Positions 24,842-64,000 of a stretch of 64,000 nt of DNA are shown in pieces. The stretch's first letter is position 1, and the number at the start of each line of letters is the position of its first letter. This DNA comes from Mycolicibacterium goodii (GTDB lineage Bacteria; Actinomycetota; Actinomycetes; Mycobacteriales; Mycobacteriaceae). Below the pieces are notes generated by a model. That model was given only the letters and a program-made list of their open reading frames with translations, ran no database searches and was not told the origin of the DNA. The stretch spans positions 3,720,001 through 3,784,000 of the forward strand of contig NZ_CP092364.2 of NCBI RefSeq assembly GCF_022370755.2, written 5' to 3'. A program made the translations under genes and the position numbers.

Positions 24842-25594
24842 ATGTCCGCTCTCGACGGGAAGACAGCGCTGGTCACCGGCGGCGGGCGCGGTATCGGCCG
24901 CGCCATCGCGATCCGACTGGCCGGCGACGGGGCACGCGTCGGCGTGCACTACGGCGCCAATGCCGACACCGCCGAACAGACCGTGCAGCAGATCCGGGAC
25001 TCAGGCGGTGACGCGTTCGCGATCCAGGCCCGACTCGGCGTCCCAGGCGACGCCGCCGCGCTGTGGAAAGCCTTCGACGACCATGCCGACGGTCTGGACA
25101 TCCTGGTGAACAACGCCGGAATACTCGGCGGTCGAATCCCGTTCGGCGACCTCACCGAGTCGATATACGACGAGGTGTTCGCGGTGAACACCCGCGCGCC
25201 GGTCTTCATCACCCAGCACGGATTGTCCCGCCTGCGAGACCACGGGCGGATCATCAACCTGTCCACCCGATTCACCCACGGCGCGCGGGTGCCAGAACTC
25301 ATGGCCTACGCGATGTCGAAGGCCGCAATCGATTCGTTCACCGCGACCCTTGCGAAAGCGGTTGCCTCACGTGGTATCACGGTGAACGCGGTCGGACCCG
25401 GCACCACGGACACCGACATGAACGCCGAACGGCTGTCGACTCCCGAGGGCCGTACCGCGGCGGCCTCTCAGTCACCGTTCGGCCGCGTCGCGCAGGCCGA
25501 CGACATCGCCGGCGTGGTCGCGTTCCTCGCCTCCGATGACGCTCGGTGGATCACGGGCCAGTGGCTCGATGCCAGCGGAGGATCGATGCTCTGA
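24842..25594 (+). CDS. Short-chain dehydrogenase/reductase
   Basis: 250-residue classical SDR with the NAD(P) motif TGGGRGIG at residues 12-19, NNAGILGGRIPF near 90, the active-site YAMSK near 155 and a PG motif GPGTTDTDMNAERL. The ending DDARWITGQWLDASGGSML is the typical C-terminus of FabG-like enzymes. AAAGGA lies 8 bases before ATG 24842. Its TGA overlaps the ATG of the following MFS gene (ATGA), and both are probably repressed by the adjacent TetR. Confidence 0.92.
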   Translation: MSALDGKTALVTGGGRGIGRAIAIRLAGDGARVGVHYGANADTAEQTVQQIRDSGGDAFAIQARLGVPGDAAALWKAFDDHADGLDILVNNAGILGGRIPFGDLTESIYDEVFAVNTRAPVFITQHGLSRLRDHGRIINLSTRFTHGARVPELMAYAMSKAAIDSFTATLAKAVASRGITVNAVGPGTTDTDMNAERLSTPEGRTAAASQSPFGRVAQADDIAGVVAFLASDDARWITGQWLDASGGSML

Positions 25595-48123: not shown

Positions 48124-49059
48124 TCATGAGGCATCTCCTGCCGTGAGATCGGTGGCGAGTTGCTGCCGAATCTCCTTGGGTACGCGCACGCCGCGCGCAC
48201 GCAGTTCGCCGATGAAGCGGGCGGCGAGTGGGTCAGGCGCCGAGGGAGTGATGGCAACGAGCTGGCGGAACCAACGGGGTGAGAAGGACCGTACGGCTCC
48301 GGGGAACCCCTCGCCGACCGCGCTGATCGGCGTGATGGCCACGCCGAGCCCCGTAGCGGCAAGCTGGGGGGCGGATGCTGTCACCGCGGTTCTCATCACC
48401 GGATCCGGACGGACGCCTGCCTCGGCGAGCGAGTAATCAAGCCAGGACACCAGACCATTCTCGGGAGCGAAGTGAACGATGGGGATGCCGTCGAGTTGAT
48501 CGAGTCGCACCGCGGGCTGTTTGGAGAGGAAATGATCGAATGTTGTTGTCAGAACGATTTCTTCGGACGCCACCGGAGTGACGGTGAACCGGTCAGGAAC
48601 AGATGTCGGGGCAGCGGCGAATGTCACGTCGACCTCATCGTCATCGAGCACTTGCAGTAGCACGTCCATCGATGTCGATTCCCGCAGGGTGAACATCACT
48701 GGGTTGTCGTTCTGGAGCCATCGTTGGATCACCGGGGCAAGGAACGTCACCGTGAGACTCTGCGCGCAGGCGAGCCGCAACGACCCGCTGGTACCTTCCC
48801 CGACGACGCGCGCCGAGCGTACCGCCGCCGCCGCCGCGTCGAGTGCCCGCCGGGCATCGGACAGTGCCGCACGACCGGCCGGCGTGAGCCTCACTCCGCG
48901 TCCTTCGCGATGAAGCAACTGCGTGCGTGTCTCACGTTCGAGTGCGGCGAGTTGTTGGGAGACTGCGGGCTGCGACGAATGCAGCGCTTCTGCGGCGCGG
49001 GTGATCGATCCGTGGTCAGCCACTGCCACCAGGGACTCCAGCGCCCGCAATGACACCAT
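48124..49059 (-). CDS. LysR family transcriptional regulator
   Basis: 311-residue LTTR. The HTH spans residues 1-60 (LESLVAVADHGSITRAAEAL, then HSSQPAVSQQLAALERETRT and LHREGRGVRLTPAGRAAL). The effector domain has SLRLACAQSLTVTFLAPVIQ. It is the third gene of a minus-strand set RraA, DUF3500, LysR (gap of 9 bases to DUF3500). The expected binding site is upstream of the rraA gene, where the symmetric TGGCAA-N4-TTGCCA lies (51177-51192). It would sense the substrate or an intermediate of that pathway. Confidence 0.92.
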   Translation of the reverse strand: MVSLRALESLVAVADHGSITRAAEALHSSQPAVSQQLAALERETRTQLLHREGRGVRLTPAGRAALSDARRALDAAAAAVRSARVVGEGTSGSLRLACAQSLTVTFLAPVIQRWLQNDNPVMFTLRESTSMDVLLQVLDDDEVDVTFAAAPTSVPDRFTVTPVASEEIVLTTTFDHFLSKQPAVRLDQLDGIPIVHFAPENGLVSWLDYSLAEAGVRPDPVMRTAVTASAPQLAATGLGVAITPISAVGEGFPGAVRSFSPRWFRQLVAITPSAPDPLAARFIGELRARGVRVPKEIRQQLATDLTAGDAS

Positions 49060-49068
49060 CTTCGCAGG

Positions 49069-50295
49069 CTACCTGCCGAGCGCCTCATTGCGACGGCGTT
49101 CCGTCAGCGCGCCATGGGCCGTGTGGTGGTGATGGGCGAGGGTGTCGACTCCGAAGTCGCCCGTTGGATCTCTCCAGACCGCATGGACGTGGTTGGCCCG
49201 GCGTTGGGTGTTGTCGTACTCGATCAGAATTCCTGGGCCTTGGACGCGGTAGTAGTGCGGTTCGCCGGCGGCCACGGCCCCGGCCCACGCGAGGTGCAGT
49301 GCGTCCAATTGGTCATCTCCCCGGTACCGGACCCGGTACGACTCGGCGATCGGTTCGGCCGCCCGGGTGAAGTACAGGTCGAGCAGGATCCGCAGTGCAT
49401 CCCGCTGCGTCGCTGTCATGGCGGCCGCCGGCAGACCTTTCGGCACCCCGGTCAACGCGACTTGGGCGTCGTCTTCCGCCGAGTAACCAGAGCCCGATTG
49501 CATCGCTTCGTTGACCTGTTCGAGCTGGGTTGCCACGACGCTGTCGGTGAACCGGCGGCGGAACACGTCGGGCAGGGGAAGCCGCTGATTTCCCTCGGAG
49601 ACCAAGGAACGGTTGGCTCCAACCAGATCCGAGACTGCCCGTGGATGAATCAGCGCACGCGACCGCTGGTCGCGATCGAAGGATCTCATCAGATCGAGGG
49701 CGACGTCCTGCACACTGGCCAGCGGTTGCAGAACACCGCCGATCAACGGTGCAGCGGCCGGGTCGGCGCCAAGGAACAGCGGGGTTGTGGACACGACACG
49801 CCCGTCCACAATCAATTGATTGACAGAGACATGATGGCCGCCGAATCGCCAGCCCCACAGCCGATCGCCCGGGGTTCCGAAGACGCTTACGTAGTACATG
49901 CCGGGGTCTCTGCCCCGCTCTCGCTCGAACGTCATCGACCACCCTTCCAAGCGGTCGAGCACGTTCTCCATTCCCATGACCGTGACCAGGGTGACGTACC
50001 CGGCCTCTGAGAGTCCGGCTGCGAGAATCTGCATTGCCAGGCGATGCTGCGCCGGGCGCTGGTCGACCAACGGGAGACCGCCGTGGTCCGTCGGGGTGTA
50101 GAACCACAGCAACCGCTCGTCCTCCGATTTTCCGGGAGGCGCAAAGGTGGCTCGAGCGCGTTGCTCGCTGGACAAACTGTCAAGCCATCCCGTGACTTTT
50201 GCGGCCAGCTCGACGGCGAGAGGTCGCGTCGCGTCGAGGGCACTCATCTCAGCGGGAGTGCGGGGTGGACGGAAGGTAAACGTATCGAGAGCCAT
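49069..50295 (-). CDS. DUF3500 family protein
   Basis: 408-residue soluble protein of the DUF3500 type: RLLWFYTPTDHGGLPLVDQR, then RDPGMYYVSVFGTPGDRLWG, WRFGGHHVSVNQLIVDGRVV, STTPLFLGADPAAAP and, near the C-terminus, EPHYYRVQGPGILIEYDNTQ followed by DFGVDTLAHHHHTAHG. The His-rich conserved parts suggest metal binding or hydrolysis, but no function is established for the family to my knowledge. ATG 50295 is chosen; the frame is open further upstream but only as a shadow of rraA. Gap to rraA is 16 bases, so both are in one operon with lysR. Confidence 0.85.
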   Translation of the reverse strand: MALDTFTFRPPRTPAEMSALDATRPLAVELAAKVTGWLDSLSSEQRARATFAPPGKSEDERLLWFYTPTDHGGLPLVDQRPAQHRLAMQILAAGLSEAGYVTLVTVMGMENVLDRLEGWSMTFERERGRDPGMYYVSVFGTPGDRLWGWRFGGHHVSVNQLIVDGRVVSTTPLFLGADPAAAPLIGGVLQPLASVQDVALDLMRSFDRDQRSRALIHPRAVSDLVGANRSLVSEGNQRLPLPDVFRRRFTDSVVATQLEQVNEAMQSGSGYSAEDDAQVALTGVPKGLPAAAMTATQRDALRILLDLYFTRAAEPIAESYRVRYRGDDQLDALHLAWAGAVAAGEPHYYRVQGPGILIEYDNTQRRANHVHAVWRDPTGDFGVDTLAHHHHTAHGALTERRRNEALGR

Positions 50296-51211
50296 TGTCG
50301 ATTCTGTGGTTTCAGTCTGTTTTGCCGTACAGGTAGTCGATAAGGCCGTCGACCGGCTCGTCGGCCTTGAGCAGGGCATCGAAACCGATCTCCGAGGACG
50401 CGATCTGCTCTGCGCGCTCCAGGACAGAGTCGATGAGATCACGAGGAATACAGCAAATCCCGGTCTCATCGGCGATGATGAGGTCGCCGGCGGCCACCTG
50501 AACACCGCACAGCCGGACCGTTCCGTTCACCTCAGTGGTGACGCTGCGCCACTTGCCGGTGATCGGAGTATGGTCGCGCGACCACACAGGAAAGTGCAAA
50601 GAGCGAGATCGTCCCAAATCGCGCACGCCACCGTCGACTATCGCACCCGCCAAACCCTGCCTCTTGGCCACCGACGCCATCAAGCCACCCATGTTCGACA
50701 CCTCGGCAAGACCTTCGATGACCAACACGTCCCCGGGACTCGCAGTCCTCAGCGCGAGGATCTCGGCCATGCGCCAATCCTTATCAGACACCGCGGCAAA
50801 CGCCGACCGCGACTGATCCACGTTCCGCACCGTCGTGGCGTTTCCGACAATCCTCTCCCTCGGCATAGACGGACCCAGACGAGACGCGGGAATGGCACCA
50901 CGAACGCCAAACTCGTCGAGCACATCGGACACCGTGCTCGACAGGTCATCGAGGGCGAGGAAACGCTGAATCGTCGCGGTATCGGTCGACGGGAGCGGAT
51001 CATGAATCGTCGCCCAGTCGAACCTCACGTTGACAGACCCCGCACGCCTCCGGTCCGACATTCACCTCTCCTCGCTAGACATGTTGTAATGCAAGCAGTT
51101 CCGGCACAATCACCGACATCCCACCAATCGCTCAACCGTATCCGAGGCAGCCCCCTCGTGCCCTTCGATCTTTGAATGGCAACCATTTGCCACCCTTCTG
51201 AATCACCGGCC
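50293..51211. repeat. 919-bp direct repeat, copy 1
   Basis: Matches 62057-62975 in the same orientation, offset 11,764 bases. All reading frames through it give identical proteins in both copies, so the DNA appears identical or nearly so. It begins inside the DUF3500 start codon, covers the whole rraA gene and ends 150 bases upstream of it, after the TGGCAA-N4-TTGCCA palindrome. No inverted repeats or transposase are attached to its ends. Confidence 0.95.
50312..51061 (-). CDS. RraA-fold aldolase-like protein, copy 1
   Basis: 249-residue member of the RraA/HMG-aldolase (former 'demethylmenaquinone methyltransferase') family. The conserved core is GDVLVIEGLAEVSNMGGLMA, then GLAGAIVDGGVRDLGRSRSL, where the GVRD Arg-Asp pair is catalytic/metal-binding in the aldolases, and HFPVWSRDHTPITGKWRSVT. 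Members cleave 4-hydroxy-4-methyl-2-oxoglutarate-like substrates to pyruvate, or simply regulate RNase E. Here the context (DUF3500, LysR, SDR, decarboxylase-like) favours catabolism. GGAGAGG precedes ATG 51061. An identical gene is at 62076-62825. Confidence 0.9.
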   Translation of the reverse strand: MSDRRRAGSVNVRFDWATIHDPLPSTDTATIQRFLALDDLSSTVSDVLDEFGVRGAIPASRLGPSMPRERIVGNATTVRNVDQSRSAFAAVSDKDWRMAEILALRTASPGDVLVIEGLAEVSNMGGLMASVAKRQGLAGAIVDGGVRDLGRSRSLHFPVWSRDHTPITGKWRSVTTEVNGTVRLCGVQVAAGDLIIADETGICCIPRDLIDSVLERAEQIASSEIGFDALLKADEPVDGLIDYLYGKTD

Positions 51212-51365
51212 GCGACTTGACGACCGGCGCTACGCATATCGCGACACTTGCCAACGCGTCCCAAATCACTTAGCTTTCAACGTGACTCGTTGATCACATG
51301 CGAGACCCCCAGTTCACGTTCGTCAGGACGTCATCGCATGACGGCACTATCAAGGGAGATAGCAC
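51062..51365. promoter_or_regulatory. Divergent control region between rraA and the SDR operon
   Basis: 304 bases without a gene. The rraA side carries the palindrome TGGCAA-CCAT-TTGCCA (51177-51192), suitable for the LysR protein. On the SDR side a promoter is readable: TTGCCA (51248-51253), 17 bases, TAGCTT (51271-51276). It is followed by an inverted repeat CAACG-TGACT-CGTTG (51278-51292) over the start of transcription. AGGGAGA precedes ATG 51366. The first half belongs to the 919-bp repeat, the second half does not. Confidence 0.6.
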
Positions 51366-52154
51366 ATGGACTACCTGCTTTCAGGGAAGACGGCAATCGT
51401 CACCGGCGGGGGGTCAGGCATCGGGCTCGAGACGGCGAACCAGTTGCTTGCCGAAGGCGCCAACGTCCTGGCGGTGGACCTTGACGTCGCTCCCCTGGCC
51501 TCCCGGCAGGAACCGCGGCTCCGGTCGTTCCAGTGCGACCTCACGGATTCGGACTCGGCGTCAGCTGTGACCGCTGCAGCGCTGGAGGAGTTCGGCTCCA
51601 TCGATATCCTGATCTCGTGTGCGGGGATCGCACCGGTGCGTACCAGCTCACTCGAAGGAACCGACGCCGACTGGCGGCGCACGCTCGATGTCAACTTCCT
51701 CAGCATCGTGCGAATGTGCCGCGAAGTGGTTCCTCACATGAAAGCCGCCAGCGGAGGATCGATCGTCAGCGTTGCTTCCGACGCCGGACGTATGCCTGAT
51801 CCCTTTTTCGCCGAATACAACGTGTCCAAAGCGGCGATCCTCATGTTCATGAAGGCACTGTCGATTGAGTTCGGTGGCGCGGGAATCCGCGCCAACACTG
51901 TCAGTCCGGGCCCGGTACGCACTCCGATGTGGGACCGGCCGGGTGGATTCGGCGATTCTGTCGCTGAGTCTTTCGGCATGGAGAAGGAGGCCGCGATCGA
52001 GCACTTCGCTGTCAATGTTCGCAAGCTTCCTCTTGCCAGACTCGGCACAGTGGCGGAGGTCGCCGCGGTCAACATATTCCTTGCGAGCCCGGTCAGCTCA
52101 TTTGTCACGGGTGCTGAGTACACCGTGAACGGCGGTAGCATTCCGACCGTATGA
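51366..52154 (+). CDS. Short-chain dehydrogenase/reductase
   Basis: 262-residue SDR: TGGGSGIGLETANQLL at residues 12-27, a DLDVAPL acidic residue after beta2 that favours NAD(H), SCAGIAPVRTSSLEGTDADW, SVASDAGRMPDPFFAEYNVS with the active-site YNVSK, and GPVRTPMWDRP. It ends with TGAEYTVNGGSIPTV. AGGGAGA lies 6 bases before ATG 51366. First gene of a plus-strand operon with the VOC and decarboxylase-like genes, divergent from rraA. Confidence 0.92.
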   Translation: MDYLLSGKTAIVTGGGSGIGLETANQLLAEGANVLAVDLDVAPLASRQEPRLRSFQCDLTDSDSASAVTAAALEEFGSIDILISCAGIAPVRTSSLEGTDADWRRTLDVNFLSIVRMCREVVPHMKAASGGSIVSVASDAGRMPDPFFAEYNVSKAAILMFMKALSIEFGGAGIRANTVSPGPVRTPMWDRPGGFGDSVAESFGMEKEAAIEHFAVNVRKLPLARLGTVAEVAAVNIFLASPVSSFVTGAEYTVNGGSIPTV

Positions 52155-52220
52155 CGTGAACACTGTTGTGTCGCAACTAGTTAAAATATCGCTCGGCGCG
52201 ATCGCCATCTGTGTTACGCG

Positions 52221-52829
52221 ATGTCGTCGGCGACAGAATTGGAATTGGATGTACATGTTGTGAACAAATCTATTCCTACCGCTACCAATGTCGACCATAT
52301 CGGTTGGTCGGTTCCAGACCTGGATGCCGCTGTGTCCTTCTGTGTCGAGGTTCTCGGGGGTCAAGAGATTCTCAGGGCCGGTCCCTTCTCCGATCCCTCC
52401 GGCGACTGGATGTCTACACATTTCGACGTCGATGCCCGGGCCTCGGCATCTCTTGCGCTCGTCCGACTCGGTGCGACGCAGGTGGTGGAGTTCATCGAAT
52501 GGAGCGCCGCGAATCGTGAAGTCGCGTGGCCGCTGAACAGTGATGTCGGGGCGTCACACCTGGCGATTCACGTGGGTGACATCGACCAGGCGATGCGGTA
52601 TCTGCAAGAGCACGGGTGCAGCGCCTGCGGTGACCCGATCCTGCTGGAAAATGTGCCTCACGCCGGCCTGACGATCCTGTATGTCCGAACGCCTGTCGGG
52701 CTGCTGTTGGAGCTCGTATCCCGTCCCGCCCATGACCTCCCCTACGAGGTCACCACCGATGCCCGACTGCTCGTCCCGACGCAGGAGTGGAACAACGGCC
52801 AAGCTGGGCCTCGAGAGGAAATGCCATGA
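52221..52829 (+). CDS. VOC (glyoxalase/dioxygenase) superfamily protein
   Basis: 202-residue protein with a VOC fold: NVDHIGWSVPDLDAAVSFCV (metal His in the first module), TQVVEFIEWSAANREVAWPL, then ASHLAIHVGDIDQAMRYLQE (second His) and TPVGLLLELVSRP (Glu ligand). Such proteins bind a divalent metal and act as epimerases, isomerases, lyases or extradiol dioxygenases; which one is not clear. ATG 52221 is used, though a start at GTG 52260 (MNKSIPTATNVDH) is also plausible. Stop overlaps the next gene by 4 bases. Confidence 0.82.
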   Translation: MSSATELELDVHVVNKSIPTATNVDHIGWSVPDLDAAVSFCVEVLGGQEILRAGPFSDPSGDWMSTHFDVDARASASLALVRLGATQVVEFIEWSAANREVAWPLNSDVGASHLAIHVGDIDQAMRYLQEHGCSACGDPILLENVPHAGLTILYVRTPVGLLLELVSRPAHDLPYEVTTDARLLVPTQEWNNGQAGPREEMP

Positions 52830-53560
52830 GTGCTGAAACTGTTGCCGGCCCGGATATCGTCCCGCTTCCACGAGAGATCATCAAGGACGCCCGAATGATG
52901 ATCATCGGGTATCGGCCGGCGGATCCAGGCGCGGCGCGGCGGGCCCTTCCGGGTCGGCTGGAACCCCATCCCGATGGAATTGTCCTTCTCAATCTCTGGG
53001 CCGCCGAGGATCCCGGCCTCTCGTCCGGGATGGGAACGTACGGGCGACTCTCGTGCGGGTATATCGCTCCGGAAGTCAGCGGATACGACACGAAGACAAG
53101 CGATGGCAATACAACTGGGCATGGCCGCTTCTTCGCACATCACTGGTTGGAGTCCGACGGCATGCGGTCCTTTGCCGAGGCATCATGTGGGAACCGCGCC
53201 GACGTCGGATGGGTCAAGCAAACCGAGCCCCGGCCCGGCGAACTGGTCCAGGAACTCTACGTCGACGACAAGGTTGTCGTGAGAACGACCTCGTATGTCG
53301 GCACCGACCGGTTGGCAACGGTCGGCGGGCACTTGAACTACTTCACGAGTTTCCCAGGCCCGGACGATCGCGAGCAGATCGCGCGGGTGGCGGTACCGTT
53401 CGTCGCCGACGTGAAGGAGGCGCAGGTCAAGTCGATCGAGTGGCTCTTCGATGCCGATCATCCCGCGGCGGCGCTCACCCCCGGAACGGACCCGGACGTA
53501 GCCAGCGTCCTCTATGGTGACATCACTTGGGCACCGTTCACGGTGGCCGAGGTGCTCTGA
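52826..53560 (+). CDS. Acetoacetate decarboxylase-like protein
   Basis: 244-residue protein resembling the ADC fold: ARMMIIGYRPADPGAARRAL, then PGRLEPHPDGIVLLNLWAAE, SCGYIAPEVSGYDTKTSDGN and the Gly-rich DRLATVGGHLNYFTSFPG. Members either decarboxylate beta-keto acids by a lysine Schiff base or catalyse aldol/dehydration reactions. Assignment of the catalytic Lys is not certain. ATG 52826 overlaps the VOC stop, making SDR-VOC-ADC one operon. The family level call is moderate confidence. Confidence 0.65.
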   Translation: MSAETVAGPDIVPLPREIIKDARMMIIGYRPADPGAARRALPGRLEPHPDGIVLLNLWAAEDPGLSSGMGTYGRLSCGYIAPEVSGYDTKTSDGNTTGHGRFFAHHWLESDGMRSFAEASCGNRADVGWVKQTEPRPGELVQELYVDDKVVVRTTSYVGTDRLATVGGHLNYFTSFPGPDDREQIARVAVPFVADVKEAQVKSIEWLFDADHPAAALTPGTDPDVASVLYGDITWAPFTVAEVL

Positions 53561-53760
53561 GGTCGTCGGTAGCATCAGATCAGTTCCCTTCCGACACGGT
53601 GGATCGTCTATAGGTCCACATGACTTGTGGATCACCACGGGAAATGCGAAGTCCACCAATCCTCGGGACACGATCGCGACCGCAGGCCGCGTCGGCCGGC
53701 CGAAGCGGGTCCGGTTACTGAGAACACACGTTAATTTCGTACGTCGAGAGGTAGACAAGG

Positions 53761-54213
53761 ATGGCTTTTGACCTTCATCCAGAGGCCCGCGCGCTCATCG
53801 AGTCACGCCCGTGCGCCCATCTGGTGACCATGCGACCGAACGGCCGCCCGCATGTGTCTTTCATCTGGATCGATGTGACTGATGACGGGCGCATCCAGTT
53901 CGGAACACCTCCGTGGCGGGTCAAGGGTAAGAACCTCGCACACGATCCGAAGTGCATCCTCTCCATCCAGGACAATCAAAAGCTGGAAAGCGGATTGACC
54001 CGACATCTCCTCATCGAGGGCATCGCCTCGATCGACGACGATGCCGAACGCGGCCAAAGATTCATGGACCAGCTGTTCCACAAGTACACAGGTGCGCCCC
54101 GTTTCGGGCTCAACGAAGATGGACATCTCCTCGTCACTGTTGACATCACGCGCGTTTCCGGCGTTGGCCCGTGGCACACCGGTAAGACGACAACTTATGG
54201 GACCCCTATCTGA
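53761..54213 (+). CDS. PPOX-class (probably F420-dependent) oxidoreductase
   Basis: 150-residue split-barrel protein: HPEARALIESRPCAHLVTMR, then PNGRPHVSFIWIDVTDDGRI, TPPWRVKGKNLAHDPKCILS and SGLTRHLLIEGIASIDDDAE. This is the pyridoxamine-5'-phosphate-oxidase-like fold; the short mycobacterial members of this length mostly bind F420. GAGAGGTAGACAAGG precedes ATG 53761. 200 bases separate it from the decarboxylase-like gene; in this gap a palindrome TCCACA-TGACT-TGTGGA (53615-53631) may be an operator, so the gene probably has its own promoter. Confidence 0.85.
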   Translation: MAFDLHPEARALIESRPCAHLVTMRPNGRPHVSFIWIDVTDDGRIQFGTPPWRVKGKNLAHDPKCILSIQDNQKLESGLTRHLLIEGIASIDDDAERGQRFMDQLFHKYTGAPRFGLNEDGHLLVTVDITRVSGVGPWHTGKTTTYGTPI

Positions 54214-55043
54214 GCTAGCGCGGATTCTCCGTGAATTGACGAGTGAGCGGCGAAAGTTCCTGCCCTGCATGGAATAGATGGGCTCCTCTCCAGAGGAGCG
54301 TTCCGCTGATGGTCGCTGAGCCGTCCCCTCATCGCTCCAATGAAATCCGGGCGAGCGGACAGGTTCCGCGAGTCTTCAACGCACCTCGAGACCTGGTCGG
54401 ACTCACACGGATCGGTGTTGGGCGCCGACACGGCAATGGCGCAGCCGGACGGATAGCTGTACCGGGACAGCTGCTTGAGCGTTGGCTGCGGTTGGTCCCG
54501 GTCGGCACCGTGTCGCGACGGGGTTCTGGTCGGCCGGAGCGCGTGGCGACGGTGGTTTTGTTGTGTGCAGCAACGAGCAGCGGCGAAACTCGGCCATCGT
54601 CATCGACGATCATCGATGACATCGGCCCGCCAAACGGACAATACGGAGTCGCGCCGATCTACAGTGTGCTGACGGCACATGCGGTCAAGATCGCGCGGTC
54701 CACCTACTGCGATGTCTGCGCTCGGCGCAATGAACCGTCCAAACGCCAGTGACGCCGAATTCACGGTCGAGATCGCCCGCGTGCACCGGAGAGGATGCGG
54801 CCCGAAGAGCCCGCATGGTGCGGCTGCAATATCACTGCGGCCGCTTGGCCTGAGTCGCGGATCGTCCGGCTGCCCGGGAGACGACCGATCGTGTGGACGG
54901 ATGCTGCCGAATGACATGCGGCGTTGACTTCCCGCCTACCAAACTTTCATGTCCATCTGTTCAGGTGGACAGATGTGGTCTAGCATTTTGTATCAAGAAC
55001 CCACACGTCGCACATGCGAACATGAGCCGAAAGTGGCCCACCC
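54214..55043. other. Gene-poor region with relic of IS3-type transposase; operon promoter at right end
   Basis: No intact gene in 830 bases. Around 54600-54750 one frame reads IDDIGPPNGQYGVAPIYSVL and TAHAVKIARSTYCDVCARRN, which looks like the start of IS3-family OrfB (normally FxxEHxxxFGVEPICRVLxxxG and IAPSTYYA). A shift of frame continues as SDAEFTVEIARVHRR up to about 54925, then decays. Towards the right end lies the inverted repeat CATCTGT-N8-ACAGATG (54954-54975) beside a -10 TAGCAT (54981-54986), the likely promoter/operator of the ABC operon. Confidence 0.55.
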
Positions 55044-56642
55044 TTGCATCTCAAGACGCGCCCTTTTGCCGTCCGCGTTGCACTGGCACTATTGATATTG
55101 GGCGCAACGATTGTCGGTTGTTCTCAATCATCCTCACCGAGGCAGTCACGCGACCAGATCACCCTCGCTGAAGCCCAGGAGCTGGGAAGCTACAGTCCGT
55201 TCGCGAGCTACGGCGAACTGGGTGTCTCCCCCATCTACGAGGGTCTGCTACGGCCGCAGGCCGACTCGGATGCCGAGATCCCAAATCTGGTTCCCGCCCT
55301 GGCTGCCGCAGCTCCCGAATCCATCGGCCCGGGCCGCTGGCGCCTACAGCTGCGTGAAGGAATCACGTTCTCTGATGGCAGCGCGTTCGACTCGGCCGAC
55401 GTGGTGGCCACCTATGCCGCGCTCAAGGATCCCACTGTCGCCTCGGAAATCGCGACCAACGTGGCTCCGATCACCGCCGTGACCGCCGATGGCCCCCACG
55501 CCGTGATCATCGACGTCGACACCGAGACCGACCCGTCACCGTATCTGCTGACCGGCATCGTGCCGTCGGAGAAGGTGGAACAGGTCCCGGCCGCAGACTG
55601 GGCGCTCAACGTCGCACCCGTGGGTACCGGCCCGTATCGATTGGACAGTCTGCGGCCCGACCAGGCGGTGATGGTGGCACGGGAAGACTACTGGGGGGAG
55701 AAGCCGCAGGTGACGCGCATCGTGTACACCCACACCCCGGATGACAACACCCGCGCTCAGCGCATCATTGCCGGTGAGGTGGACGGGGCGAACCTGCCGC
55801 CGAGGCTCATCCGGTCGGTGCAGAGTGGCGACGTCAGCACCGTCGCGGTGAAATCAGCGGACTGGCGCGGAGTTTCGTTCCCCGCCGGGCAGCCCTTCAC
55901 CGCCGATCCGCAAGCCCGGCTGGCGATGAACCTTGGCGTGGACCGCACCGCCGTCATCCGCGACGTGCTCGACGGCCACGGCCGCCCCGCCTACACCCCG
56001 ATCGGCGATGTCTACGGAGACGCGTATAACCCGGACGCGACATTCACCTTCGATGCCACGGCGGCAGCCGCGATCCTCGACCGTGCGGGCTGGCGCCCTG
56101 GTTCCGACGGCATCCGCGAGAAAGACGGCGCACGAGCTGAATTCGAGCTGCTGTACAACGCCTCGGACACACTGCGCCGTGACCTGTCCGTCGCGTTCGC
56201 CACCGCGATGAAGCCGCTTGGCATCCAGGTCGATCCGCGGGGTAGCAGCTGGGATGAGATCGACACGCGGTTCGACACGTCCGCAGTGCTGCTCGGTGGA
56301 GGCTCCACCCCATACAGCATCGACTCGCAGGTCTACGATACCCTGCACACCCGAGTTCCGGATTCCTCCCCGTACTCCAACCCCGGCAACTTCACCGCAC
56401 CCGGACTCGACGAGCTGCTCGAGCGAGCCCGTCAATCACCCTCCGGCGTGGACAAAGACGCGCTCTACCGCGATGTCCAGGCCAGCTACATCGCCCAGCC
56501 GTCGAACGTGTTTCTCGCGTTCCTGGACCACACCTACGCCTACCGCAACCTCGGTTGGAAACAGACCGCGCCGATCCTCGAGCCGCACTCCCACGGCGTG
56601 ACCTGGGGCCCATGGTGGCGACTGAACGCATGGACGCGCTGA
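55044..56642 (+). CDS. ABC transporter substrate-binding lipoprotein, peptide/nickel type
   Basis: 532-residue SBP_bac_5 family binding protein. Lipoprotein signal: RVALALLILGATIVGC with lipidated Cys at 26. The mature protein has SIGPGRWRLQLREGITFSDG, NVAPVGTGPYRLDSLRPDQA and VYTHTPDDNTRAQRIIAGEV, typical of DppA/OppA/NikA. The chosen start is TTG 55044 (MHLKTRPFAV), because no ATG or GTG lies suitably upstream in frame; the ribosome site is weak. It opens a five-gene importer operon. Peptides, opine-like compounds or metal chelates are possible ligands. Confidence 0.9.
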   Translation: MHLKTRPFAVRVALALLILGATIVGCSQSSSPRQSRDQITLAEAQELGSYSPFASYGELGVSPIYEGLLRPQADSDAEIPNLVPALAAAAPESIGPGRWRLQLREGITFSDGSAFDSADVVATYAALKDPTVASEIATNVAPITAVTADGPHAVIIDVDTETDPSPYLLTGIVPSEKVEQVPAADWALNVAPVGTGPYRLDSLRPDQAVMVAREDYWGEKPQVTRIVYTHTPDDNTRAQRIIAGEVDGANLPPRLIRSVQSGDVSTVAVKSADWRGVSFPAGQPFTADPQARLAMNLGVDRTAVIRDVLDGHGRPAYTPIGDVYGDAYNPDATFTFDATAAAAILDRAGWRPGSDGIREKDGARAEFELLYNASDTLRRDLSVAFATAMKPLGIQVDPRGSSWDEIDTRFDTSAVLLGGGSTPYSIDSQVYDTLHTRVPDSSPYSNPGNFTAPGLDELLERARQSPSGVDKDALYRDVQASYIAQPSNVFLAFLDHTYAYRNLGWKQTAPILEPHSHGVTWGPWWRLNAWTR

Positions 56643-57643
56643 CCACCGAGGCGCCGGACTGGCGCCGCGAGCGTCTGCGCCCCGCCGCGAGACTCCTCGG
56701 AATCCGTGCATTGATCGCGGTTCCGGTCACGTTGGCCGTCTCCGTGGGCATGTTCGGCGTGGCCGCACTCTCACCGTTGGACCCCCTGGCCGCCTATCTC
56801 GGTGACAACTATCAAATCGCCACCCAGTCGCAACGCGAGGCCATGCGAGCCGCTTACGACCTCGACCAACCCTGGTGGGAAGCGTGGTGGCACTGGCTCA
56901 CCGCGGCATTGCAGGGTGATCTGGGGTGGTCGTCCACCCAGTCACTGCCGGTGAGCACCGTGCTGGCCGAGCGGATGCCCTTCACTCTCGGCCTGTCGGG
57001 CACTGCACTGCTTCTCGGGGCGGTGATCGCTCTGGTGCTGGGATGTGTCGCCGGGATGAGTGGCGGGATCGTCGACCGGCTGTGCAACAGTTTCGCGGTG
57101 GCGTTCGCGGCGGTTCCGCCGTTTGTGATGTCGCTGGCCCTGGTGACCGTGTTCGCCGTCGGCCTGCGCTGGTTTCCCACCTCGGGGGCGCGGCCACCCG
57201 GCGGTGACTACACCGGCGCCGGCCTTCTGACCTATTCGGTGCTGCCGCTCAGCGCGCTGGTGGTCTCGCAGATTCCGTGGCTGCTGCTGGCGACCCGGGC
57301 CGCGGTGCTCGAGGCGCGTGACTCCGATGCGGTCCGGGCCGCCCGCGCCCGCGGTGTGCACGGCTGGCCGCTGTTGCGTGCCCACATCGCGCCGGTTTCC
57401 GTGCTGCCGACATTGGCCCTTACCGGCACCCGGCTGCCCGAGCTCATCGCCGGAGCTGCCATCGTCGAAACGGTCTTCGGCTGGCCCGGAGTGGCCGCCG
57501 TGCTGGTCGATTCGGCTGCGGCACTGGACTTTTCGTTGTCAGCTGCACTTACCGTCGGCGCCGCCCTGGCGGTGTTGCTCGGTTCGGCGTTCTCCGATGC
57601 CGCAGCGGTGGCTCTGGACCCCCGGATCGGACTGCGCGCATGA
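56630..57643 (+). CDS. ABC transporter permease (DppB/NikB type)
   Basis: 337-residue permease. After an N-terminal helix (LIAVPVTLAVSVGMFGVAAL) it has AYDLDQPWWEAWWHWLTAAL and QGDLGWSSTQSLPVSTVLAE, the characteristic DppB early loop. The EAA loop is DSDAVRAARARGVHGWPLLR, followed by GAAIVETVFGWPGVAAVLVD. Starts at 56612 or 56630 are both possible within the overlap with the binding protein gene; no clear ribosome site. Stop overlaps the next permease by 4 bases. Confidence 0.9.
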   Translation: MDALTTEAPDWRRERLRPAARLLGIRALIAVPVTLAVSVGMFGVAALSPLDPLAAYLGDNYQIATQSQREAMRAAYDLDQPWWEAWWHWLTAALQGDLGWSSTQSLPVSTVLAERMPFTLGLSGTALLLGAVIALVLGCVAGMSGGIVDRLCNSFAVAFAAVPPFVMSLALVTVFAVGLRWFPTSGARPPGGDYTGAGLLTYSVLPLSALVVSQIPWLLLATRAAVLEARDSDAVRAARARGVHGWPLLRAHIAPVSVLPTLALTGTRLPELIAGAAIVETVFGWPGVAAVLVDSAAALDFSLSAALTVGAALAVLLGSAFSDAAAVALDPRIGLRA

Positions 57644-58467
57644 GCACCCTCGTGCTGTCCCGGCGGGCCGTCACCGGTTGGCCCTGGTTGTTGCTGGCTG
57701 CCATCGTGGTGGCCGCGGTGGCGGTCCCGCTCGGCGCGGGCGAACAGCTGGCGGATTTCGGCCGGGCATTACAACCACCGAGCGCCGCGCACCCCGCCGG
57801 CACCGACCATTTCGGTTATGACCTGCTGATCAGAACTGCTCAGGGACTGCAGATCTCACTGTTGACGGCCGGATCATGCGCCGTGGTCGCGACCGTGCTC
57901 GGTGCGCTGATCGGTGTGGGTTCGGCCCTCGCCGGCGGGTGGGTCGACGCCGCAGTCATGCGTGTCGTGGACGGCGTGAATGCGCTTCCACATCTTGTGG
58001 TGGGCATCGTGATCGCGGCGATGTGGCGCGGCGAGACGCTGGCCATCATCGCGTCGATCGGGCTGACCCACTGGCCCGCCGTCGCCCGGGTGGTGCGCGC
58101 CGAACTGCTCGCAGTCACCGACGCCGGCTGGGTGCAAACCTCGCGTTTGGCAGGCGCGTCGCGGTGGTTCATCGCGCGGCACCATCTGGTGCCGACGGTG
58201 ACCGGTCAAGCCGTTGTCGCGATGGTGATGCTGTTGCCGCACGCGGTGTGGCACGAATCGACGCTGTCGTTCCTCGGTGTCGGGCTGTCCCCTGATCGCG
58301 CCAGCTTGGGCACGCTGCTGGGGCAGGCTCGCGGTGACATCCTGGCCGGGGCGTGGTGGACGCTGGTGGTCCCCGCCGGGTCCCTGATCCTCACTGCCCT
58401 GTCGTTCGCCGCCGCGGCCTCCGAGACGCGCCGTCGCAGCGAACCGCCCAGCGGACGGGTGTGGTGA
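57640..58467 (+). CDS. ABC transporter permease (DppC/NikC type)
   Basis: 275-residue permease, second of the pair. HPAGTDHFGYDLLIRTAQGL near residue 48 is the DppC hallmark, followed by GALIGVGSALAGGWVDAAVM. The EAA loop reads DAGWVQTSRLAGASRWFIAR, and SFLGVGLSPDRASLGTLLGQ near 205 is typical of the family C-terminus. ATG 57640 and the stop both overlap neighbours by 1-4 bases. It forms a heterodimer with the preceding permease. Confidence 0.92.
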   Translation: MSTLVLSRRAVTGWPWLLLAAIVVAAVAVPLGAGEQLADFGRALQPPSAAHPAGTDHFGYDLLIRTAQGLQISLLTAGSCAVVATVLGALIGVGSALAGGWVDAAVMRVVDGVNALPHLVVGIVIAAMWRGETLAIIASIGLTHWPAVARVVRAELLAVTDAGWVQTSRLAGASRWFIARHHLVPTVTGQAVVAMVMLLPHAVWHESTLSFLGVGLSPDRASLGTLLGQARGDILAGAWWTLVVPAGSLILTALSFAAAASETRRRSEPPSGRVW

Positions 58468-59234
58468 TGGCAGACGCTGCGCAGCTGCGCGAATTCAGCG
58501 TGGACATCGCCCTCCACCAGAGCGGGCATTCCCCCTTGGTCCGCACCCTCCACGACGTCAACCTGACGGTACCCACCGGCAAGCTGACCGCGCTGATCGG
58601 TGAATCCGGATGCGGCAAATCGCTTGTCGCCGCGACGTTGTGCGGCTTGCTTCCGCCGGGATCACGGGCGCGCGGCCAGATCCGTATCGGCGGACGGGAC
58701 CTGAGCGTAGCCGGCGAGCGGGATTGGCGTGAGGTCCGCGGCCACCACATCGGACTCGTTCCCCAGTCGGCGGCGACGTCGTTCACTCCGGTGCGTACGG
58801 TGGGCGCTCAGCTCACCGAGGTATGCCGCCGGCTCGGCGCCGACCGCAGCGCCGCCGAACTTCTCACCGCGGTGCACCTGCCGGTCGATGCCGGAGCACT
58901 GTATCCGCACGAGCTCTCCGGCGGCATGGCCCAGCGCGCCGCGATCGCCGCGGCCATAGCCGCCCGTCCGGCACTGCTGGTCGCCGATGAACCGACCTCC
59001 GCACTGGACCCCGCGCACGCGGCGGCGATCTGGCAGCTGCTCGGATCCATCGCCGAAGCGGGTGCGGGCGTCCTGGTCATCACCCATGATCTGAGGTCAC
59101 TCCTCGACGCCGCAGTGTGCGATGACGTGGCGCTGATGCGCGGCGGCACGATCATCCGTCAGGCGCCGCTGACGGAAATAGCCGACAGCGCCGACAATTA
59201 CATCGGCTTGTTCTTCGCCGGAGCGAACTCGTGA
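58467..59234 (+). CDS. ABC transporter ATPase (DppD/NikD type)
   Basis: 255-residue ATPase: Walker A GESGCGKS (about 42-49), Q-loop IGLVPQSAATSFTPVRTVGA, signature ELSGGMAQRAAIAAAIAARP, Walker B LLVADEPTSALD, and H-loop VLVITHDLRSLLDA. ATG 58467 shares a base with the upstream stop (TGATG). It is shorter than E. coli DppD (327 aa), lacking most of the C-terminal oligopeptide-binding extension, as in NikD-like proteins. Confidence 0.92.
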   Translation: MADAAQLREFSVDIALHQSGHSPLVRTLHDVNLTVPTGKLTALIGESGCGKSLVAATLCGLLPPGSRARGQIRIGGRDLSVAGERDWREVRGHHIGLVPQSAATSFTPVRTVGAQLTEVCRRLGADRSAAELLTAVHLPVDAGALYPHELSGGMAQRAAIAAAIAARPALLVADEPTSALDPAHAAAIWQLLGSIAEAGAGVLVITHDLRSLLDAAVCDDVALMRGGTIIRQAPLTEIADSADNYIGLFFAGANS

Positions 59235-59857
59235 GGACGTCAGGGCTTGTCGCCGAGAATGTCTGGGTGGCCTTCGGTGGCCGGCCCGTACTACGCGCGG
59301 TGAATCTCACCGTGCGCGCCGGCGATATCGTCGGCGTCACCGGTCCGTCGGGCTGCGGCAAGACCACACTGCTGCGCGTGTTGGCGGGTTTGCGCAGGCC
59401 CGATGCAGGCAACGTGCGCTACGACGACAAACCGGTGGCCCCGGCGGGTTCCATCGGCATGATCGCCCAGCACCCACGGTTGGTGTGCAATCCACGCTGG
59501 ACCCTGGGCGCCATCGTCACCGAGCCCGCCCGCATCCGCGGCACGTCAGCCGACATCGAGATCACCAGCGCCCGCGTTGGGTTGGACACCGCGCTCCTGC
59601 AGCGCCACCCCGCTCAGGTCAGCGACGGTCAGCTCCAGCGCGCCTGCATCGCCCGGGCCCTGCTCGCGGCACCGCAGTTCCTCTTGTGCGACGAGCCCAC
59701 CGCCATGCTGGATCCCATCGCGGCGAGGGACATCACCGACCTGCTCAAGCAGCTCGCAGCCGAGGGCACCGGAATCGTTCTGGTGAGCCACAATCCGCGG
59801 CTGGTCAGCGAACTTGCCGACTGCGTTTCGGTTCTTGGCGTCCCTCCTGGCAATTGA
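59231..59857 (+). CDS. ABC transporter ATPase (NikE/DppF type, short)
   Basis: 208-residue ATPase: Walker A GPSGCGKTT (about 38-46), a Q-loop IGMIAQHPRLVCNPRWTLGA, signature QVSDGQLQRACIARALLAAP (SDGQ instead of SGGQ, as in NikE/PhnK relatives), Walker B FLLCDEPTAMLD and H-loop IVLVSHNPRLVSE. GTG 59231 overlaps the previous gene by 4 bases. It ends just after the H-loop; there is no C-terminal extension. Last gene of the importer operon. Confidence 0.9.
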   Translation: MRTSGLVAENVWVAFGGRPVLRAVNLTVRAGDIVGVTGPSGCGKTTLLRVLAGLRRPDAGNVRYDDKPVAPAGSIGMIAQHPRLVCNPRWTLGAIVTEPARIRGTSADIEITSARVGLDTALLQRHPAQVSDGQLQRACIARALLAAPQFLLCDEPTAMLDPIAARDITDLLKQLAAEGTGIVLVSHNPRLVSELADCVSVLGVPPGN

Positions 59858-60149
59858 CCTGCGACCAGCCCGCTTGTCGCGCGCGCAGGGAGGTAGGCCA
59901 ACCGTCGGAACTAAAGCTGAGCGGCCAGCGAGAACGCCGCCGGCCGACCGCAGGTAACGTGTCGCCTTCGGCGGTGTCGATCCTGCTACGCAGCCGGTGG
60001 AACCGGGGCTGGGCAACAACCGTCGGCTGCCTGGGTTGCGCCATGCAGCAATGCGGTCTGAGGCGTTCAACGACATAGCCGCTGCCGCCAAAGGCCGCCT
60101 GTGCAAGCCACCGGCTCCACCGCACCACACCACTACTGGATCGCAAGCC

Positions 60150-60407
60150 CTAACAGGGCAGGGTCTCCCGTTTGTCACAGACGGTTGCTTTGAAAGTAGG
60201 GCTCGCCGACGGCGTGGACAGCTCCCTCGGTGCCTTTTTCACCGTGTAGGTGGCCAACGGGTAGTGGCCCATGCCTTCCGTGTACGCGGCAGCGTCATCC
60301 CCAGCGAAGGCAAAGGTACTGGCGCCCATGGCAATGAAGACACAAGCGCCCAAAGCGGCAGACGCCGTCTTCGTGCGCCACGCGAAACGACGTGAAATTC
60401 TCAGCAT
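60150..60407 (-). CDS. Small secreted protein (85 residues)
   Basis: ATG 60407 is preceded on the minus strand by AGGAGAT at 5-6 bases. The N-terminus MLRISRRFAWRTKTASAALG has an Arg/Lys start, a hydrophobic core ALGACVFIAMGASTFAF, and a likely cleavage AFA-GDD near residue 36. The mature part of about 50 residues contains YTEGMGHYPLATYTVKK and two cysteines (AVCDK-type VCDKRE and C-terminal LPC), which could form one disulfide bond. No family is recognised. It lies alone in a stretch of 900 bases between the ABC operon and an IclR gene. Confidence 0.7.
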   Translation of the reverse strand: MLRISRRFAWRTKTASAALGACVFIAMGASTFAFAGDDAAAYTEGMGHYPLATYTVKKAPRELSTPSASPTFKATVCDKRETLPC

Positions 60408-60774
60408 GTTCCATCTCCTAGCAACCAGCCGAACAGGTCAGGATCGCGCCCTATTGGAGCGACACATGCCACACTGCATCATCGAAGTGCCCTGAATCAC
60501 TTTCTGTTCGGATATATCGGAAGCCACTTCTAACCAAGGGGGTACGCGCTTCGACGTCGACAGCACACGACCCCCAACGCCGTCAGAGGCGCGCAGAGTA
60601 CGAAGTTCTAGCGGATGTCGCGTGGACCGATGCTTCTACGGTTCGTGCCGTTCTCGATGGATGGACCTGCCACGGCCTCATTTGATCGACGAAGCGGTTA
60701 AAATCCCTTCGATACCGAAGCTGCCAACATTGAGCTACATCGACCGCGCCACCGTGCGAACGCAGCCTTCGAAT
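60408..60774. other. Intergenic region without recognisable gene
   Basis: 367 bases. It includes the upstream region of the small secreted protein gene (ribosome site at 60411-60417) and the 3' flank of the IclR gene. A short symmetric GATATATC lies near 60512. I see no other coding or structural feature. Confidence 0.5.
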
Positions 60775-61524
60775 TTAGTTGGCCTGCTGCATCAACGCGC
60801 GCGCAGCACGTCGGGCGATACCGATGTACTCGTCGCAATTGCGCTGCAACCTCTCCGAAGGCATGCAAATGGAGAGTGCTGCCACCGCTCGCCGCTCTCG
60901 TCGATGTATGCCGACCGCAATACACGAGTGCCCGGTGATAGTCCTACCGTGTTCGATCGCCAGATCTTGGTCGCGCACCGACAACAGTTCCTCGCGAAGG
61001 ATGGTGGCATCGGTGACCGGCCCGTAGGCAAGAAGCGGGGCGCCATTCTGTGGCATCCGCTCCTTGACCTTGGTCCATGGCAGTTGTGCGATGAGCAACC
61101 TGCCCAGTGCCGAGGTATAACCGGGGAGATACACATCGTTAGGAAGATCGTGACCAACCCGGCCCGCTGCGGCAGAGACGATCGAGATCACCCCTTGACC
61201 ATCCCATACCCCGACGTTCACAGCAGCCTTGAGTCGCTTCGACAGCTCGGCGACCGCACGGTGGGTATGCAGACCGAAGCAGCTCGAGTTCATCAGACGA
61301 CGGCTGATGAGCAGTAGTCGCCAACCAAGCCGATATCGATCGTCAGAGGTTTGTTGCAGCAAACCGATTTCAGCGAGGCTGGCCACGATGTCAAACGTCG
61401 TTGATTTCGCCAGACCCAGCATCACCGCCATTTCGGTCACCCCCCACTCCGGGCGGTCCACGGTGAAAAGGTTGAGCACCATCCCGGCACGCTCAATCGT
61501 ATTCAGCACGTCACCGGCCTCCAA
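60775..61524 (-). CDS. IclR family transcriptional regulator
   Basis: 249-residue regulator: winged HTH at residues 5-70 (LNTIERAGMVLNLFTVDRPE, then WGVTEMAVMLGLAKSTTFDI, VASLAEIGLLQQTSDDRYRL) and an effector domain with VISIVSAAAGRVGHDLPNDV and GYTSALGRLLIAQLP. Ends ARRAARALMQQAN. It is a lone gene between the ABC importer and rraA copy 2. The likely targets are the ABC operon and/or the CaiB gene at 63551. The symmetric sites near 54954 and 63504 do not match each other, so I cannot tell which it binds. Confidence 0.9.
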   Translation of the reverse strand: MEAGDVLNTIERAGMVLNLFTVDRPEWGVTEMAVMLGLAKSTTFDIVASLAEIGLLQQTSDDRYRLGWRLLLISRRLMNSSCFGLHTHRAVAELSKRLKAAVNVGVWDGQGVISIVSAAAGRVGHDLPNDVYLPGYTSALGRLLIAQLPWTKVKERMPQNGAPLLAYGPVTDATILREELLSVRDQDLAIEHGRTITGHSCIAVGIHRRERRAVAALSICMPSERLQRNCDEYIGIARRAARALMQQAN

Positions 61525-62056
61525 CCAACGCGCGCGTCACTTATCCATGTCGGAGTTGCGTTCAGATCAGGACGAATCGGAAATTCACCGCTGCAACGAT
61601 CGCATCGACACGTCGGGTTCCAAATCGCTCGCATTCTCCAAATACTCTGCGCCAACTGCGATGAGGGGCTACCAACTTTAGCCAAGCCTGAGGCGATAAC
61701 CTCCACAAAGTCCGAGACCCAATTACGTTGAGACATAAGGTGAAATGAACGACCACACAGTTGGTATCCGGGGTGGGACGCATGGCGGCCGCCGATGAGG
61801 AGGACGTATCCGTCGGCAAGGAGCGAGCTGCCGGGCATGCCGACGGCGTGAGCCGATGACAATCACAAGCCGCGATACAAGTGCCGCTGCAGAGAATTTG
61901 GCTACGACTCCAGGCGCCAGACGACTCGCGAACAGTCATCGATGAGGCGTACCCGAGCAGATCAAGACCGACGGCCATGAACGGGCCGACGGTAGTAGCC
62001 GACCCACTTTACTGCGCCATGTCGGACACGAGTGCCTTCGCCTCGTCGACCCAAGT
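61525..62056. other. Intergenic region without intact gene
   Basis: 532 bases between the IclR start and the 919-bp repeat copy 2. Several short frames are open on both strands but none has good codon use, a ribosome site and a family resemblance. Directly after rraA copy 2, the ATG corresponding to the DUF3500 start reads into a 16-codon frame (MTWVDEAKALVSDMAQ). It replaces DUF3500 at the repeat edge. Confidence 0.5.
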
Positions 62057-62975
62057 CATTGTCGATTCTGTGGTTTCAGTCTGTTTTGCCGTACAGGTAG
62101 TCGATAAGGCCGTCGACCGGCTCGTCGGCCTTGAGCAGGGCATCGAAACCGATCTCCGAGGACGCGATCTGCTCTGCGCGCTCCAGGACAGAGTCGATGA
62201 GATCACGAGGAATACAGCAAATCCCGGTCTCATCGGCGATGATGAGGTCGCCGGCGGCCACCTGAACACCGCACAGCCGGACCGTTCCGTTCACCTCAGT
62301 GGTGACGCTGCGCCACTTGCCGGTGATCGGAGTATGGTCGCGCGACCACACAGGAAAGTGCAAAGAGCGAGATCGTCCCAAATCGCGCACGCCACCGTCG
62401 ACTATCGCACCCGCCAAACCCTGCCTCTTGGCCACCGACGCCATCAAGCCACCCATGTTCGACACCTCGGCAAGACCTTCGATGACCAACACGTCCCCGG
62501 GACTCGCAGTCCTCAGCGCGAGGATCTCGGCCATGCGCCAATCCTTATCAGACACCGCGGCAAACGCCGACCGCGACTGATCCACGTTCCGCACCGTCGT
62601 GGCGTTTCCGACAATCCTCTCCCTCGGCATAGACGGACCCAGACGAGACGCGGGAATGGCACCACGAACGCCAAACTCGTCGAGCACATCGGACACCGTG
62701 CTCGACAGGTCATCGAGGGCGAGGAAACGCTGAATCGTCGCGGTATCGGTCGACGGGAGCGGATCATGAATCGTCGCCCAGTCGAACCTCACGTTGACAG
62801 ACCCCGCACGCCTCCGGTCCGACATTCACCTCTCCTCGCTAGACATGTTGTAATGCAAGCAGTTCCGGCACAATCACCGACATCCCACCAATCGCTCAAC
62901 CGTATCCGAGGCAGCCCCCTCGTGCCCTTCGATCTTTGAATGGCAACCATTTGCCACCCTTCTGAATCACCGGCC
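62057..62975. repeat. 919-bp direct repeat, copy 2
   Basis: Second copy of 50293-51211, same orientation. The left boundary is base 62057, where upstream sequence (T instead of C) stops matching. The right boundary is 62975, after which 62976 (C instead of G) differs. It carries rraA, its ribosome site, the leader and the TGGCAA-N4-TTGCCA palindrome (62941-62956). Confidence 0.95.
62076..62825 (-). CDS. RraA-fold aldolase-like protein, copy 2
   Basis: 249 residues, identical to the product of 50312-51061, including GLAGAIVDGGVRDLGRSRSL with the catalytic Arg-Asp. It keeps the same ribosome site and upstream palindrome, so it could be transcribed under the same control as copy 1. Unlike copy 1 it is not followed by DUF3500 and lysR; the downstream sequence has no intact gene. 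Identical paralogues imply either a recent duplication or ongoing gene conversion. Confidence 0.9.
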   Translation of the reverse strand: MSDRRRAGSVNVRFDWATIHDPLPSTDTATIQRFLALDDLSSTVSDVLDEFGVRGAIPASRLGPSMPRERIVGNATTVRNVDQSRSAFAAVSDKDWRMAEILALRTASPGDVLVIEGLAEVSNMGGLMASVAKRQGLAGAIVDGGVRDLGRSRSLHFPVWSRDHTPITGKWRSVTTEVNGTVRLCGVQVAAGDLIIADETGICCIPRDLIDSVLERAEQIASSEIGFDALLKADEPVDGLIDYLYGKTD

Positions 62976-63550
62976 CGTCCACTCATTGCAGGGGCGGCGT
63001 TTGAACGATTCGGCCCGGCTGAGTTCACAGCCGAGACATCGTCGATACGATGACATACGCCGGTTCGGAGATGGCTCCGTCCTCGCGCAGATCGAGTACG
63101 ACACGACCCGGGACCGGCCCCGGCGATGATGCGCTTGCGGCCAGAAAAGCCGTCCGCCGCTGCCACATCTGGCATCCGACTTCACCGGAACGCAAGTCAT
63201 GCGTCATTACTTGTTCGACCACGGCATTCTCGACCGCTGATTCCTGCCGCCAGAAGGCGGCAGGACTTTACTCGCTGGATCGAGAGAGCGGGACCTCGCC
63301 GCCGCCACTGCCGCCTGGTCCAGACAGCATCGTCCTCCGATTCACCCGCCAGTGCTGCCGTTATGAAGCGGCCTCCACTTCCCGCGCGCGGCTCGGCACA
63401 AGTCGTGGCCCCAAGTCACCTCAGTCGACCCCGTTGTGTGTCTGCGAGTTGGCGTGTGCTCTGCCGCTTGGTTGACACAGACCGTGTTGAAGGTCGAGAC
63501 TGTCGTATATACGTACTTGATGTTCCAATATAAGACGGAGTAGTAGCCGC
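62976..63550. other. Intergenic region with a hairpin and the CaiB promoter region
   Basis: 575 bases without an intact gene. A perfect hairpin CCTGCCGCC-AGAA-GGCGGCAGG occurs at 63243-63264, followed by ACTTTA on the plus strand. Close to the CaiB gene lies the palindrome CGTATATACG (63504-63513) in an AT-rich stretch with possible -10 (ATATAAG near 63528), then GGAG at 63537-63540. Codon-like frames to the left of the hairpin could be gene debris but resemble nothing I know. Confidence 0.5.
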
Positions 63551-64000
63551 ATGAGTAATCGAAATGGGACAAGCGAAAGTCTCGTCGGGCTGCGAGTCCT
63601 CGATCTGTCACGTGTTCTGGCCGGCCCGCTGTGTTGTCAACTCCTCGGCGACCACGGAGCGGATGTGATCAAGGTCGAGTCGCCTGACGGGGACGACACA
63701 CGGCGGTGGGGTCCCCCGTTCGTGGCAGACGACATGAGCGCTTACTTCAACGCGATCAACCGCAACAAACGCAATATCTGCTTGGACCTGCAGACCTCGC
63801 GAGGACAGCAGGTGCTCGAGCGACTACTCGAGGACACCGATGTGGTCGTAGAGAACTTCAAGGCAGGAACCATGGCTCGGTGGGGGTTCTCCGACGAGCA
63901 GATTCTGGAGCGTCACCCACGTCTGATCGTCTGCCGTATCACCGGCTTTGGCACCGACGGACCAATGGGTGGGATGCCGGGCTACGATGCCGTCACTCAG
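63551..64000 (+). CDS. CaiB/BaiF (family III) CoA-transferase, N-terminal part
   Basis: 150 codons to the right edge; the gene continues beyond the window. GLRVLDLSRVLAGPLCCQLL and GDHGADVIKVESPDGDDTRR start the fold, followed by YFNAINRNKRNICLDLQTSR, DVVVENFKAGTMARWGF and CRITGFGTDGPMGGMPGYDA, all typical of formyl-/succinyl-CoA-type transferases; the catalytic Asp lies beyond the edge. GGAG lies 10 bases before ATG 63551. The family member in the 29-31 kb operon is only distantly similar. It probably activates an acid produced by the island's enzymes. Confidence 0.92.
   Translation, partial: MSNRNGTSESLVGLRVLDLSRVLAGPLCCQLLGDHGADVIKVESPDGDDTRRWGPPFVADDMSAYFNAINRNKRNICLDLQTSRGQQVLERLLEDTDVVVENFKAGTMARWGFSDEQILERHPRLIVCRITGFGTDGPMGGMPGYDAVTQ

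Follow-up and report, generated by a model that had tools for sequence, protein, structure and literature searches.

Recent duplications of coding DNA have been described in mycobacteria. During an outbreak of Mycobacterium tuberculosis, a 7.3 kb duplication involving PPE genes arose through homologous recombination between repeats (PMC12046097). Direct repeats have also been placed in chromosomal constructs of M. smegmatis, where perfect deletion of the intervening sequence was induced approximately 1,000-fold above background (PMC3519483). As for the gene product of interest here, a member of the family PF03737, one of the closest known systems is the 4-hydroxy-4-methyl-2-oxoglutarate/4-carboxy-4-hydroxy-2-oxoadipate (HMG/CHA) aldolase/oxaloacetate decarboxylase of Pseudomonas putida F1 (3NOJ), which has a catalytic Arg and a metal-binding Asp and Glu (PMC5065237). 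In the present work we analysed a stretch of 64,000 nucleotides of Mycolicibacterium goodii (contig NZ_CP092364.2, positions 3,720,001 to 3,784,000; hereafter the window), in which an RraA-like gene occurs twice, each time within a 919-bp direct repeat. The second copy probably originated in a recent, single ectopic duplication of this 919-bp stretch. Like the M. tuberculosis case, it would be a recent duplication of mycobacterial coding DNA for which no mobile element is needed; that duplication, however, is larger, whereas here only 919 bp are involved, the copy is not adjacent to its original, and no homology was seen at the insertion site.

Base-by-base comparison of copy 1 (50293-51211) with copy 2 (62057-62975), which lie in direct orientation at an offset of 11,764, gave 0 mismatches over 919 positions, bearing out the initial annotation, which had placed a 919-bp direct repeat here with its copies 11.76 kb apart. 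The next base beyond either end of the match differs between the copies, so that the coordinates are exact, and a match of this length and exactness cannot be due to chance. The unit was found at these two places only when the whole genome was searched (one contig of 6,741,306 bases, 99.99% complete). In a 22-mer scan of 83 kb (the window and the adjoining 19 kb), a single further direct repeat turned up, 24 bp in length, whereas inverted repeats of at least 22 bp were absent. Each copy comprises a complete RraA-like open reading frame (ORF) of 249 amino acids on the minus strand (50312-51061 in copy 1; 62076-62825 in copy 2) together with 150 bp upstream of it, as had been proposed. Downstream of the gene, a 16-base spacer leads in both copies to the start codon of a DUF3500 gene, which, in the minus-strand reading, constitutes the first three bases of the repeat, again as annotated at the outset. 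Both RraA-like genes are intact, and their sequences are identical. A mini-ORF at 62009-62059 (minus strand), whose translation is made up of the copied DUF3500 start codon, 15 unrelated in-frame codons and a stop, is a by-product of the joint formed at copy 2. It could be argued that copy 2 is absent from the cell and was created during assembly, with which a perfect identity over 919 bp would be compatible. Nevertheless, the genome is a single contig of high completeness, the sequences that flank the two copies differ on either side, and a false join alone makes no extra copy with two further unique flanks, so that we regard an artefact of this kind as very improbable.

Comparison with other genomes, in collections that hold one genome per species, indicated which of the copies is the older. 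The closest database protein is an RraA family protein of M. goodii, from which 3 of the 249 residues differ, and relatives at 88-90% were found in the genomes of Mycobacterium sp. 852013-50091_SCH5140682, M. wolinskyi, M. canariasense and M. hippocampi. The loci of these four species carry the block that runs from a LysR-type regulator to a PNPOx-like protein (48134-54219 in the window) at 82-87% DNA identity, in the order LysR-DUF3500-RraA-SDR-VOC-ORF-PNPOx and with one rraA each, to which both copies of the window align. DNA of the LysR-DUF3500-RraA portion was matched at 1e-100 in 6 of 396 genus genomes, the window's own included, and each of the other five (out of 395) gave one match, with up to two places scored per genome. 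By position or identity, four of these five are the species named above, and the fifth (G293) also has the block. The SDR, VOC, ORF and PNPOx genes adjoin rraA in all five of the other loci seen (L011-L014 and L058), and the gene order around copy 1 is the same as theirs. Outside 48125-54222, nothing of the window aligns with these loci in matches longer than 150 bases, except copy 2 and a 154-base match at 24870-25020. Since the relatives carry the block with a single rraA and the same neighbours, these alignments identify copy 1 as the one that has kept the ancestral location and copy 2 as derived. Two of 197 other genomes of the genus encode relatives of the RraA-like protein at 1e-60, and among 147 other relatives eight had matches to the repeat DNA, all of them partial, the longest being of 191 bases at 68%.

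The same gene order has consequences for the origin of the sequence between the copies. Amplification or integration of a 10.8 kb unit by homologous recombination, as suggested at first, is not supported, given that SDR-VOC-ORF-PNPOx are ancestral neighbours of rraA and that the interval is a patchwork, whose blocks differ in their distribution across the genus. Because these four genes are found beside rraA in every one of the five other loci, their place between the copies is not the result of an insertion there. An ATP-binding cassette (ABC) importer (55044-59857, plus strand; a binding protein, two permeases and two ATPases; PF00496, PF00528, PF00005) is matched by related DNA, 70-77% identical, in at least 19 of the 197 other genomes of the genus, and an IclR regulator gene (60775-61524, minus strand; PF01614, PF09339) has relatives at 58-60% in five of 197. 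A Campbell-type integration, in which an rraA already in the chromosome recombined with a circle bearing another rraA plus the 10.8 kb, so that the island came to lie between direct repeats, would be a single-crossover event and as such fits both the direct orientation and the perfect identity. However, the host must then have lost the genes inside copy 1 beforehand, since they are its ancestral neighbours in all five loci, and the separate distributions of the interval's contents also argue against such an origin, which we consider improbable.

In the ectopic duplication that we favour, 919 bp of the ancestral locus would have been copied into a mosaic region, 11.76 kb distant, where catabolic genes had been acquired. 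The copied stretch would start from the DUF3500 start codon and take in the spacer, the whole RraA-like gene and that portion of the divergent control region which is nearest to rraA. The new DNA may have been inserted through end joining or template switching; alternatively, an 11.76 kb unit may have been duplicated in tandem, with the second unit subsequently reduced to its first 919 bp. End joining by Ku and LigD has reportedly been studied in mycobacteria. The duplication would be recent, as the initial annotation had also held, because the copies are identical, which would equally follow if they had been freshly homogenised. Its expected effects are a greater amount of the same enzyme and an occasional deletion of 11,764 bp through recombination between the copies; that deletion had been anticipated, and its size follows from the repeat offset. 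Such an event is plausible, since direct repeats in chromosomal constructs induce deletions of this kind in M. smegmatis.

Some considerations weigh against this scenario. The direction at the level of the strain and the mechanism are both putative, and gene conversion could also keep the copies identical, which makes any statement on their age only a guess. In addition, the copy ends near functional borders, namely a start codon and a position just past a control block, which is unexpected for random breakage, although with two ends it may be a matter of chance. If the event is dated from the three-residue difference to the closest protein, about 3.7 differences would be expected per 919 bp, and the chance of observing none would be about 0.025, a weak estimate that ignores synonymous changes and gene conversion.

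Mobile elements were considered as well. An insertion sequence or composite transposon was rejected, as the RraA-like gene is the unit's only gene and no transposase was present among the interval ORFs scanned (some small ORFs fell outside the scan). Neither terminal inverted repeats nor a target-site duplication were visible by eye at the junctions, with no program search for short terminal repeats, and the junction bases share no common extension. There are no tRNA genes in the window, and the scan, which took in a part of its ORFs, brought up neither an integrase nor a transposase. A plasmid origin was likewise discarded, after a near search of a plasmid collection had given a single 52-base match, inside an ABC gene.

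The sequence directly around copy 2 has no close relatives in the genus: of 197 other genomes, 3 match the 532 bases on its left and 11 the 575 on its right, in each case only over short stretches of approximately 25-60 bases. The fragments beside copy 2 that were tried belong to no family in Pfam or PHROGs, and a single weak PHROGs match (E 0.008) was obtained, for the ORF at 54243-54752. About 470 bp to the right of copy 2, at 63445, begins an operon whose DNA is similar to that of G522, a genome of another family. The similarity sets in 106 bases ahead of the CoA-transferase gene and extends over 5,966 bases, with 89.2% identity. The DNA on this side that was considered comprises 63445-64000 of the window and positions 3,783,900-3,803,000 of the contig. 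This gene is the first of the operon (63551-64000 and past the window, plus strand; PF02515; 89% DNA identity to G522) and is followed by genes for an acyl-CoA synthetase, an acyl-CoA dehydrogenase and a CitE-like lyase (named from best NCBIfam matches, which are below cut-off); farther on lie an IclR regulator, tripartite ATP-independent periplasmic (TRAP) transporter genes and a flavin monooxygenase. The lyase had no relative at 1e-60 in any of the 197 other genus genomes, and at 1e-70 only one of 253 other genomes from the order had one, namely G522, at 86%. For this catabolic operon, the comparison points to a recent lateral transfer. Farther to the right, the gene order is rearranged between the two genomes.

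The operon in G522 is also relevant to the possibility that copy 1 overwrote, through gene conversion, a diverged rraA homologue already present next to the CoA-transferase operon, which would account for the identity of the copies and for the gene-sized tract. The G522 sequence that surrounds its related operon, 37 kb in all, contained no RraA relative (blastp and tblastn, 1e-3; one locus), so that there is no sign from this one locus that copy 2 replaced a resident rraA, and the flanks of copy 2 contain no recognisable rraA-like remainder; we attribute only a very slight chance to this course of events.

An alignment of the intergenic region between rraA and the SDR gene, including the window and the four species, revealed a conserved block on the rraA side and a second one nearer the SDR gene. 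The rraA-side block consists of a TTC-N7-GAA dyad (T-N11-A) followed by AATGG-N3-CCATT, and forms a candidate operator at 51164-51187 in copy 1 and, with the identical pattern, at 62928-62951 in copy 2. The T-N11-A arrangement seen in this dyad is a pattern known for LysR-type sites. The pattern is exact in L011, L012 and L014, its core is present with one change in L013, and no match to it was found in L054. Copy 2 ends 24 bases past this block and does not include the second one, on the SDR side. As the rraA-side block is whole and the second block was left out, copy 2 amounts to an entire gene accompanied by the candidate operator nearest to it. The RraA-like gene would be controlled by the LysR regulator of the old block. 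We envisaged that rraA and the candidate LysR-type operator, copied so as to face the acquired operon, might have brought the enzyme under the older regulator, and perhaps the operon with it, but we hold this to be unlikely. If it were true, a laterally acquired pathway would be wired to a resident signal, and recombination between the repeats would allow the ABC/IclR block to be lost.

Regarding the protein itself, it appears to be an RraA-fold, aldolase-like enzyme and is assigned to PF03737 (112 bits). The name rraA, in the sense of a regulator of RNase E, which the initial annotation had used, does not hold against the curated models, since both NCBIfam models for that regulator scored below their cut-offs (NF006875, 43 of 136 bits; TIGR02998, 22 of 241 bits). 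The Pfam family is common to both proteins, but the one described here has 249 amino acids, as opposed to model lengths of 161. It shares its family with the HMG/CHA aldolase 3NOJ too, and R147/D148 align with the Arg123/Asp124 pair of that enzyme, while E224 sits at the position of Glu199 only by extrapolation two residues past the end of the alignment. The protein would be a metal-dependent enzyme of the RraA fold, of the pyruvate-aldolase or decarboxylase type. Against this stand the NCBIfam aldolase models, none of which was reached (NF006731, 77 of 179 bits; TIGR02798, 69 of 304 bits). Unlike 3NOJ, the protein lies far under the curated cut-offs, its aldolase or decarboxylase activity is putative, and the cluster in the window is not recognisable as a gallate or protocatechuate pathway.

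Overall, the event seems mostly ordinary in kind, though neatly preserved, and would be notable chiefly for a copy that adjoins pathway genes also carried by a member of a different bacterial family. Provided that it is real and fixed, it would offer a clean snapshot of a young single-gene duplication, with proximal control sites, beside a laterally shared operon, and would permit direct tests, in a mycobacterium, of gene dosage, of rewiring and of how often the DNA between natural repeats is deleted. The general picture is unchanged by the duplication.

The ancestral block begins with the conserved LysR-type regulator (48124-49059, minus strand; PF00126, PF03466) and the DUF3500 gene (49069-50295, minus strand; PF12006). 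On the other side of rraA, and all on the plus strand, follow the SDR dehydrogenase (51366-52154; PF13561/PF00106), a VOC/glyoxalase-like protein (52221-52829; PF13669), a conserved ORF (52826-53560, or from an alternative start at 52787), which had no match at 1e-3 in Pfam and NCBIfam, and the PNPOx-like protein (53761-54213; PF01243), the last gene of the block. The block was seen in at least five mutually non-aligning chromosomal surroundings (the window, L011, L012, L013/L058 and L014) with nearly identical ends, and for that reason may be mobile as a whole. In other respects the interval contains what was initially described, except that the conserved ORF, then called decarboxylase-like, and a supposed secreted protein have no family match. 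We take the latter to be an ORF of 85 amino acids downstream of the IclR gene (60150-60407, minus strand), which has, by eye, a signal-peptide-like start and no match in Pfam or PHROGs. Matches to it were found by tblastx beside relatives of the IclR gene in L046, L048 and L049; a tblastx comparison of the IclR neighbourhoods was too noisy for use. Between the ancestral block and the ABC importer, about 250 bases (54580-54830) hold no recognised gene but are matched at 71-73% DNA identity in G238, G236, G063, G160, G183 and G034, and are possibly the remnant of a gene.

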